A stretch of 48,593 nucleotides of DNA from an uncultured Flavobacteriaceae bacterium (GTDB lineage Bacteria > Bacteroidota > Bacteroidia > Flavobacteriales > Flavobacteriaceae): positions 1-48,593 of the forward strand of contig CALHCC010000052.1 in the NCBI GenBank assembly GCA_937930675.1, given 5' to 3'. The notes under the pieces were generated by a model. It was not told the DNA's origin, did no database searches, and worked only from the letters and a program-made list of their open reading frames with translations. This document shows positions 25,592-28,524 of the stretch, piece by piece; position 1 is the first letter of the stretch; every line of letters starts with the position of its first letter. A program made the translations under genes and the position numbers.

Positions 25592-25599
25592 TACTTTTG
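25592..25599 (+). promoter_or_regulatory. -7 promoter element of rplM-rpsI
   Basis: TACTTTTG fits TAnnTTTG. It is 60 bases before the rplM ATG, so the transcript should begin close to 25605. Confidence 0.55.
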
Positions 25600-25605
25600 C
25601 AATCC

Positions 25606-25620
25606 CTTGGAGAATCCAAG
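25606..25620 (+). promoter_or_regulatory. 5'-terminal hairpin of the rplM leader
   Basis: CTTGGA - GAA - TCCAAG forms a perfect 6-bp stem with a 3-base loop, starting a few bases after the -7 element. It would be at the very 5' end of the rplM-rpsI mRNA. Such a position fits a ribosomal-protein autoregulatory leader or a stabilising 5' hairpin. Confidence 0.45.
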
Positions 25621-25658
25621 AAGAATTATTGTTTAATTATTACAAAAACTAAGTGTAA

Positions 25659-26114
25659 ATGAACACATTAAGTTACAAAACAGTATCGGCTAACAAAGCT
25701 ACTGTAGACAAGCAGTGGGTTTTAGTAGATGCGGACGGACAAACATTGGGTCGTTTAGCTTCTAAAGTTGCAAAACTAATTAGAGGGAAGCACAAACCAA
25801 GTTTTACTCCTCACGTAGATTGTGGAGACAACGTTGTTATTATCAACGCTGAAAAAATTCAATTAACTGGAAAAAAGTGGGATGACAAAGCCTACATCCG
25901 TCATACAGGATATCCAGGAGGTCAAAGAAGTTTATCTGCTACAGAAATGTTCGAAAAAGATCCTACAAGATTAATCGAAAAAGCAGTAAAAGGAATGTTA
26001 CCTAAAAACAAATTAGGTAGTGCTCTTTACAAAAACTTATATGTTTATGCTGGTGCAGAGCATGCTCAAGAAGCTCAACAACCAACAGCTATTAACTTAA
26101 ACGACCTTAAATAA
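25659..26114 (+). CDS. rplM: 50S ribosomal protein L13
   Basis: 151 residues, normal length. Motifs include WVLVDADGQTLGRLASKVAKLIRGKHKPSFTPHVDCGD, VVIINAEKI, YIRHTGYPGG and the PKNKLGSALYKNLYVYAGAEHAHxxQ-type ending. It is a primary binder of 23S rRNA in early large-subunit assembly. It is the first gene of the rplM-rpsI pair, 2 bases from rpsI. Confidence 0.98.
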   Translation: MNTLSYKTVSANKATVDKQWVLVDADGQTLGRLASKVAKLIRGKHKPSFTPHVDCGDNVVIINAEKIQLTGKKWDDKAYIRHTGYPGGQRSLSATEMFEKDPTRLIEKAVKGMLPKNKLGSALYKNLYVYAGAEHAQEAQQPTAINLNDLK

Positions 26115-26116
26115 TT

Positions 26117-26503
26117 ATGGAAACTATTCACAAAATTGGTAGACGTAAAACTGCCGTAGCAAGAGTATATGTTTCTGAAGGAGAAGGAAACATTACAATT
26201 AATGGTAAAGAGTTAACCAACTACTTTACTACAGGTACTTTACAATATAAAGTAAAACAAGCATTATTATTAACAGAAAACTTAGAGTCTTTTAACATTA
26301 CTGTAAATGTATTTGGAGGAGGAGTTACTGGACAAGCTGAAGCTATCCGTTTAGCAATCTCTAGAGCTTTATGTGAAATTGATGCAGAAAACAGAAGTGT
26401 GTTAAAACCAGAAGGATTGTTAACTCGTGATCCTAGAATGGTTGAACGTAAGAAATTTGGTCAAAAGAAAGCAAGAAAGAAGTTCCAATTCTCAAAGCGT
26501 TAA
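26117..26503 (+). CDS. rpsI: 30S ribosomal protein S9
   Basis: 128 residues. It starts IGRRKTAVARVYVSEGEGNITING, contains GGGVTGQAEAIRLAISRAL, and ends with the basic KKARKKFQFSKR tail that reaches the P-site tRNA on the ribosome. It is co-transcribed with rplM. Confidence 0.98.
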   Translation: METIHKIGRRKTAVARVYVSEGEGNITINGKELTNYFTTGTLQYKVKQALLLTENLESFNITVNVFGGGVTGQAEAIRLAISRALCEIDAENRSVLKPEGLLTRDPRMVERKKFGQKKARKKFQFSKR

Positions 26504-26533
26504 TCTTTTACAATTATTTAATAAAATTAATCG

Positions 26534-26605
26534 ATTGTTTAGCAAAAATAGTAGAGACTTCTACACAGAACTACTCTTCTATTGCTAACATAACATCTAA
26601 ACAAT
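26534..26605 (+). ncRNA. Candidate structured leader of rpsB
   Basis: The 112-base rpsI-rpsB spacer contains nested complementarity. The outer stem ATTGTTTAG (26534-26542) pairs with CTAAACAAT (26597-26605). An inner GCAaaaATAG pairs with CTATTGC (26579-26585), and an apical hairpin is GTAGA-GACT-TCTAC (26551-26564). An alternative AGTAG/CTACT pairing competes with the apical hairpin. The outer stem ends 10 bases before the ATG, so folding could regulate rpsB translation. S2 autoregulates its own operon in other bacteria. I cannot assign it to a named RNA family. Confidence 0.5.
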
Positions 26606-26615
26606 AAACCATATT

Positions 26616-27359
26616 ATGGCAAATATTCAAGAATTATTAGAAGCTGGTGTACACTTTGGACACTTAACAAGAAAGTGGAATCCAAGTATGGCTCCTTTCA
26701 TCTACACAGAAAAAAATGGAGTTCACATCATCGATTTATACAAAACTTCAGCTAAAATTGACGAAGCATCTGTTGCTTTAGAAAAAATTGCTGCATCAGG
26801 AAGAAAAATCTTATTTGTTGCAACAAAAAAACAAGCAAAAGATATCGTTGCAGAAAAAGCTGGAGCTGTAAACATGCCTTACATCACAGAAAGATGGCCA
26901 GGGGGTATGTTAACGAACTTTGTTACTATCCGTAAAGCTGTTAAAAAAATGGCTCAGATTGATAGAATGAAGACTGATGGATCTTTTGATGCATTATCTA
27001 AAAGAGAAAAATTACAAATTGACCGTCAAAGAGCTAAATTAGAAAAGAACTTAGGTTCTATTTCTGACATGACTCGTTTACCAGGTGCTTTATTTGTAAT
27101 TGATGTTAAAAAAGAACACATTGCTGTTGCAGAGGCTAAGAAATTAAACATTCCTGTATTTGCTATGGTAGATACAAACTCTGATCCTAGCCCAATAGAC
27201 TTCGTAATTCCATCTAACGATGATGCTTCAAAATCTATTGACAAAATTTTAACACTTACTACAGAAGCAGTTGCTAAAGGATTAAGTGAAAGAAAGGCAG
27301 GTAAAGAAACAGCTCCTGCTGCTGAAGCTCCAAAAGAGACTACAGAAGAAGCTAAATAA
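26616..27359 (+). CDS. rpsB: 30S ribosomal protein S2
   Basis: 247 residues. It has LLEAGVHFGHLTRKWNPSMAPFIYTEKNGVHIIDL, KQAKDIVAEKAG, ITERWPGGMLTNF and FVIDVKKEHIAVAEAKKLNIPVFAMVDTNSDP. A low-complexity Ala/Glu-rich tail (AAEAPKETTEEAK) is common in Bacteroidota. It is followed by tsf, the usual S2-EF-Ts pair. Confidence 0.98.
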   Translation: MANIQELLEAGVHFGHLTRKWNPSMAPFIYTEKNGVHIIDLYKTSAKIDEASVALEKIAASGRKILFVATKKQAKDIVAEKAGAVNMPYITERWPGGMLTNFVTIRKAVKKMAQIDRMKTDGSFDALSKREKLQIDRQRAKLEKNLGSISDMTRLPGALFVIDVKKEHIAVAEAKKLNIPVFAMVDTNSDPSPIDFVIPSNDDASKSIDKILTLTTEAVAKGLSERKAGKETAPAAEAPKETTEEAK

Positions 27360-27380: not shown

Positions 27381-27409
27381 CGGTACAAATCTTTTATATT
27401 TTTGTACCG
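27381..27409 (+). promoter_or_regulatory. Hairpin with internal promoter element between rpsB and tsf
   Basis: CGGTACAAA (27381-27389) and TTTGTACCG (27401-27409) form a perfect 9-bp stem with an 11-base loop. A TATTTTTG sequence (27397-27404) that fits TAnnTTTG spans the loop and the 3' arm. After the stem comes TTCATTTTTAT. The element could attenuate read-through from rpsB, give tsf its own promoter, or do both. Confidence 0.45.
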
Positions 27410-27442
27410 TTCATTTTTATAAAAACTTTAAAAAATAATACT

Positions 27443-28428: not shown

Positions 28429-28464
28429 AAAAAAACCTTTCATACTATTATGAAAGGTTTTTTT
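28429..28464 (+). terminator. Terminator of rpsB-tsf
   Basis: A perfect 16-bp inverted repeat, AAAAAAACCTTTCATA and TATGAAAGGTTTTTTT, with a 4-base loop and T run. Confidence 0.9.
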
Positions 28465-28524
28465 ATTTCCGTAATTCTTTTTAGAAAACATCAATTTAGT
28501 TTCTCTAATTTTAGCTCAAAATTT

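Follow-up and report, generated by a model that had tools for sequence, protein, structure and literature searches.

Between rpsI and rpsB, a 72-nt element of the 112-nt spacer forms a conserved, structured leader RNA of rpsB, and we regard this as almost certain. It was found in the window (the whole stretch of 48,593 nucleotides of flavobacterial DNA analyzed here), and it belongs to a leader family that is new to Rfam and to the literature searched and that covers the flavobacteria and several related families. In our reading, Bacteroidota have an S2 autoregulatory leader that acts on translation initiation, and the window element is the reduced version carried by its genus; we assign this reading a probability of roughly 0.78. 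From analogy and position we infer that uS2 binds the leader and regulates its own gene through it.

The rpsB leader in the window

The features that matter for the argument are as follows; the covariance models R1 and R2 and the family helices P1, P2 and P3 are described in the next section.

25592-25599, plus strand: TACTTTTG, nearest upstream promoter-like TAnnTTTG; a pattern match only, with a count in the window at chance level
25659-26114 and 26117-26503, plus strand: rplM and rpsI, upstream genes that likely share a transcript with rpsB
26504-26533, plus strand: short upstream spacer, the position of P1/P2 in most relatives; both apparently absent in the window copy
26534-26605, plus strand: rpsB leader RNA core (outer helix plus hairpin P3), from R1 and R2 matches and covariation
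26534-26542, plus strand: outer helix, 5' strand; the pseudoknot strand (J2-3) in P1-bearing relatives
26539-26543, plus strand: UUAGC, 5' strand of the inner extension, with its partner at 26584-26588; from energies and pair probabilities
26547-26583, plus strand: hairpin P3 in the minimum-energy fold, homologous to the family P3, with strong covariation
26556-26574, plus strand: asymmetric motif GRC ... CYAC in P3, near-invariant by column composition of 61 sequences
26584-26588, plus strand: GCUAA, 3' strand of the inner extension, pairing with UUAGC at 26539-26543
26589-26593, plus strand: an extra 5 nt, CATAA, inserted in the window species and missing from its 6 congeners
26597-26605, plus strand: outer helix or pseudoknot, 3' strand, stopping 10 nt short of the rpsB ATG
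26616-27359, plus strand: rpsB, encoding ribosomal protein uS2; the downstream gene in 84 of 84 R2-matched class genomes

The rpsI stop codon ends at 26503 and the rpsB ATG is at 26616. A 127-nt fold of the spacer has an energy of -18.4 kcal/mol, with a z-score of -3.94 against dinucleotide shuffles and none of 200 shuffles as good; the stems are therefore real, beyond chance. The preliminary description had proposed an outer and an inner stem enclosing the rpsI-rpsB spacer; both were recovered, around the spacer hairpin. The outer helix has 9 bp and joins ATTGTTTAG (26534-26542) to CTAAACAAT (26597-26605). Hairpin P3 is built from AAUAG/CUAUU, AGAG/CUCU, the single pair A26557-U26572 and UUCU/AGAA, closed by the loop ACAC, and its regularity is broken by a C.C mismatch (26558/26571) and a bulged A (26573). 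The outer helix with the hairpin is predicted at -12.8 kcal/mol, versus -11.8 for the inner extension UUAGC/GCUAA with the hairpin. These two states are mutually exclusive, as both use 26539-26542 in a competition for UUUAG. The apical competition proposed earlier, in which GTAGA/TCTAC would alternate with AGTAG/CTACT, was not recovered: the strings are present, but their pairing probabilities in the 72-nt fold are about 0.00 and 0.01, and neither pairing agrees with the P3 fold of the family. Both were rejected as conserved structure.

The leader most likely lies inside an rplM-rpsI-rpsB transcript, because TAnnTTTG occurs neither on the plus strand from rplM to rpsB in the window nor ahead of the motif in the spacers of relatives (0 of 62, versus 5.7 expected). 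Across the family the leader ends no more than 26 nt before the AUG, which leaves hardly any room for a transcript start downstream of it; judged by this distance, the element is part of the mRNA of the gene it precedes. The dedicated downstream promoter that the preliminary description named as grounds for abandoning the leader did not appear, there being no TAnnTTTG between leader and rpsB. The rpsI-rpsB spacer of the window has no terminator-like site, and no U-run follows the helix.

Two observations concern the flanking genes. In the rplM 5' region (25592-25626), the promoter-like TACTTTTG is followed by a CTTGGA/TCCAAG hairpin; this could be the published Bacteroidia L13 leader, and Rfam gave no match at 25592-25626. 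On the other side, tsf lies downstream of rpsB, with a terminator-like inverted repeat (ACGGTACAAA / TTTGTACCGT, 27381-27412) in between. This repeat includes TATTTTTG, and tsf may therefore be transcribed separately. An apparent intrinsic terminator, AAAACCTTTCATACTATTATGAAAGGTTTTTTT, follows tsf at 28436-28466.

Distribution, covariation and family structure

Of 61 genomes, one per Flavobacteriaceae genus, 60 yielded rpsB, and the spacers were retrieved. In a block comparison that tolerated at most one substitution in the 5' block, the leader stood directly before rpsB in all 58 of the other Flavobacteriaceae genera with a readable spacer. The common block consists of UUAGUUUAGCAUCUAAAU, a variable hairpin ending in AUUGCUA, then GAACGUAAACUA, about 10 nt and the AUG. 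When 84,980 species genomes were scanned with the exact pattern, at least 120 stretches matched. Among the 120 matches listed, 118 immediately precede rpsB and two run into a contig edge; by taxonomy, 119 of those listed are from Bacteroidota and the remaining one is titled [Muricauda] okinawensis. The viral contig collection gave no leader match.

Covariance models gave the same picture. R1, built without the window genus, matches the window at 26510-26604 (35.6 bits, E 6e-6) as its sole match in that genome, and in 295 class genomes it yields 30 matches, one per genome. R2, a minimal core model, matches exactly 26534-26605 at 51 bits, a score to be read with the window copy being in the R2 seed. 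It matches 84 of 396 class genomes, every one of them directly before rpsB as judged from inspected loci or coordinates, and one additional weak match lies elsewhere (genome G138, E 0.02). The element is consistently upstream of one ribosomal protein gene. Within Flavobacteriales it is present in most of the sampled families, and several Bacteroidia families beyond that order have it as well; named examples among the latter include Porphyromonadaceae and Muribaculaceae genomes. It was not found in the small-genome Flavobacteriales family f16, nor in families f6, f10 and f12, and many Bacteroidia in the 396-genome class sample are without it. Some such motif-free Bacteroidia (L317, L320 and L322) have a Shine-Dalgarno (SD)-like AGGAGG before rpsB, in a phylum described as doing without SD pairing.

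Two alignments define the structure: A1, with 46 diverse Flavobacteriaceae sequences, and A2, with 61 sequences from Flavobacteriaceae and other Bacteroidia restricted to the minimal core. The full form seen in A1 comprises P1, a variable P2 hairpin, a J2-3 segment with UAGUUU, and P3, followed after P1 by AAACUA, which pairs with the UAGUUU of J2-3 to make a pseudoknot. The P1 strands are GUUnUUGUUG or GUUGUCGUUG, pairing with CAACAGAAC or CAACGGAAC. In A1, 89.8% of cells are paired versus 35 to 44% with slid partners, and the covariation score is 0.300 versus at most 0.136 in the slid controls. For the outer helix/pseudoknot and P3 in A2, the corresponding values are 89.9% versus at most 45% and 0.508 versus at most 0.111. 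The secondary structure is conserved, with covariation. The preliminary description would have given up the leader had covariation across genera been missing, and proposed an alignment and a covariance model as the check; covariation is strong across genera and extends across families, and R1 recovers the window site. Together with the strict association with rpsB and the lack of a matching promoter element in between, this strongly supports its proposal of a structured rpsB leader.

On rpsB protein trees, the contrasts for P3, P1 and P2 run almost all in the direction of pairing. At P3 pair 22-57, 9.6 of 10 contrasts have the same direction (p 0.002); most other pairs offer too few contrasts for significance singly. 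The core pairs of the pseudoknot hardly vary. Its distal pairs are standard in 178 of 195 and 161 of 195 cases and come in A-U, U-A and G-C versions, from few independent events. The pseudoknot, or closing helix, is thus a predicted pairing that the counts support well and the phylogeny modestly. The inner UUAGC/GCUAA is conserved in most Flavobacteriaceae, with no compensatory change. As a class-wide alternative to the pseudoknot, this inner 5-bp helix is 81% paired with no double change, and we treat it as unproven.

Within P3, the motif 5'-GRC / CYAC-3' is nearly fixed in the 61 sequences: the G in 61, the C in 60, the bulged A in 59 and the second C in 61, with a mismatch that is either C.C or U.C. 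It is likely the protein-recognition site. In some species (L006, L008, L017, L021 and L049) the inner part of P3 consists of AAGCC...-type repeats, not GRC/CYAC, and the outer blocks are unchanged. In one Flavobacteriaceae subgroup (L045 to L047, L051, L057 and L061) the 5' strand of P1 apparently lies further upstream and extra helices are enclosed; in L051, for example, GTTCATTGAA pairs with TTCAAAAGAAC.

All 7 species of the window genus have a reduced form, without the P1/P2 segment and without part of the conserved GCAUCUAAA; their outer helix, at 9 bp, is longer than the closing helix of relatives. When the upstream spacer of the window is aligned to R1, the P1 pairs are mostly non-standard. 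The window copy accordingly departs from the P1/P2/P3-plus-pseudoknot topology and keeps P3 and the closing helix.

In 227 loci the distance from the 3' strand of the closing helix to the AUG is 0 to 26 nt, mostly 9 to 10 nt. In some Bacteroidia outside Flavobacteriales, the pseudoknot strand abuts the rpsB ATG (GUAAACAUG). In five Bacteroidia outside Flavobacteriaceae (L234, L238, L240, L241 and L184), GTAAAC directly adjoins that ATG.

Relation to known leaders

A close parallel is the rpsB motif of Proteobacteria and others (RF01815; Meyer et al. 2009, PMC2704228), in which P1, P2 and P3 are accompanied by a pseudoknot that J2-3 forms with the strand following P1. Both elements sit directly before rpsB, and P2 and P3 vary in length in both. 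The 46 aligned Flavobacteriaceae sequences show that same topology, but with other conserved letters, and P1 and P2 are dispensable in the Bacteroidia form, as in the window genus and several Bacteroidales. No Bacteroidota occurrence of the rpsB motif was reported (PMC2704228). An Rfam scan, also suggested in the preliminary description, returned no relevant family for the window: RF01815 and RF00127 gave no match in the window and 20 relatives at gathering or relaxed thresholds, and RF01815 gave none in a typical relative even with E values as high as 10 allowed, nor in 19 others at looser scans.

In E. coli, uS2 represses rpsB together with bS1, which it needs for the purpose (PMC10931766). 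The E. coli leader matches t44 (RF00127) at 83.5 bits; R2 scored only at noise level on it, and no homology was found by this route. The two share their place as rpsB leaders and, if our proposal holds, translational feedback by uS2. They differ in that the Bacteroidia element is intercistronic, after rpsI, and in that its pseudoknot strand usually lies 9 to 10 nt from the AUG; the E. coli rpsB ribosome binding site is reported to lie outside the operator (PMC10931766). By sequence models, then, the Bacteroidia element is not a member of RF01815 or RF00127, and it is like an S2 leader in position and predicted topology.

Two systems in the same phylum also invite comparison. The Bacteroidia L13 leader (Eckert and Weinberg 2020, PMC7247131) serves an operon of rplM, rpsI and often rpsB, but it is assigned to L13 and its listed genes start at rplM; the rpsB leader lies not upstream of rplM but between rpsI and rpsB. 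Autoregulation of rpsU by bS21 is likewise feedback on a ribosomal protein gene in Flavobacteriales, but its mechanism relies on an extended SD and on ribosomes without bS21, with no folded leader, and an rpsB reporter in F. johnsoniae did not respond to changes in bS21 (PMC9976891). For Bacteroidia or Flavobacteria, the 2020 survey of ribosomal leaders has entries for L13, S4, S15 and S16 but none for S2 (PMC7247131), and rpsB is not mentioned in the other motif surveys PMC2864571, PMC11109978 and PMC8040213, supplementary tables aside. It is possible that such tables list the element unnamed. Mimicry of 16S rRNA, or of the uS2 site on it, was also considered, and the one resemblance seen was the 6-mer GUAAAC, with two occurrences in the 4.5-kb rRNA locus and about one expected by chance.

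Candidate mechanism and its rivals

We favor S2 autoregulation in part because the topology is shared with the proteobacterial rpsB motif, which itself precedes the gene of the E. coli repressor protein. Free uS2, perhaps with bS1, would bind P3 and the junction and stabilize the closing helix at the expense of the inner UUAGC/GCUAA extension. The closing helix would then occupy the rpsB initiation region and block loading of the 30S subunit. An excess of uS2 would in this way lower rpsB translation, and rpsB would be controlled apart from rplM and rpsI on the same transcript. Against such a switch, its inner half has no compensatory support; against the S2 reading more generally, the element has no sequence resemblance to known S2 leaders and many Bacteroidia do without it.

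The main competitor, which we consider unlikely, is a constitutive translation element, a standby site or enhancer that positions or exposes an SD-less rpsB initiation region with no sensing of S2. The closing strand does lie within the initiation region, F. johnsoniae rpsB has no SD (PMC9976891), and some motif-free relatives carry the SD-like AGGAGG instead. However, the elaborate hairpin, the near-invariant motif and the pseudoknot topology like that of S2 leaders exceed what a standby site needs, and other SD-less genes lack the element, all matches being to rpsB. A different ligand (bS1, EF-Ts, uS9 or uL13) for the same rpsB leader is a slighter prospect. It would draw on the neighbors, with rplM and rpsI upstream in the window and tsf downstream of rpsB, and on the dependence of E. 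coli uS2 on bS1 for repression (PMC10931766); but the element comes after rpsI, the terminator-like hairpin splits rpsB from tsf in the window, and all matches precede rpsB.

The intercistronic position and the lack of TAnnTTTG before the motif in all 62 spacers would suit an element for mRNA processing or stability, one that sets the rplM-rpsI part of the transcript apart from rpsB. A processing site could do without a near-invariant internal motif and would not require the closing strand to stay so close to the AUG in the large majority of species, and we think this reading improbable. We give almost no credence to transcription attenuation between rpsI and rpsB: there is a hairpin in the intercistronic spacer, but no U-run follows the helix, the spacer has no terminator-like site, and a closing helix adjoining the AUG comes too late. 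Just as little speaks for a functionless chance fold of an AT-rich spacer, which has only the low GC content in its favor and is refuted by the comparative data, given the z-score of -3.94, the covariation and the rpsB-only distribution.

Returning to the S2 leader, we lean toward a wider claim with somewhat less confidence than we place in the window element itself: that Bacteroidota have an S2 leader class of their own, with no entry in Rfam 15 or in the papers searched, and with the pseudoknotted three-way-junction topology of the proteobacterial S2 leader, arisen independently or by ancient descent. It would provide separate control of rpsB in bacteria that do not use SD pairing, by covering the start region with the pseudoknot strand.

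Translation initiation in Bacteroidota does not use Shine-Dalgarno pairing, and docking of bS1 on the 30S subunit requires uS2. No S2 feedback element for Bacteroidota is listed in the literature searched, supplementary tables aside. The models R1 and R2, the alignments and the strict association with rpsB provide the basis for a new RNA family entry. If the S2 reading is true, a leader present in much of one class, with the same topology in different letters, would allow tests of whether a shared RNA architecture is dictated by uS2 and of how a leader can block initiation where there is no SD to hide.
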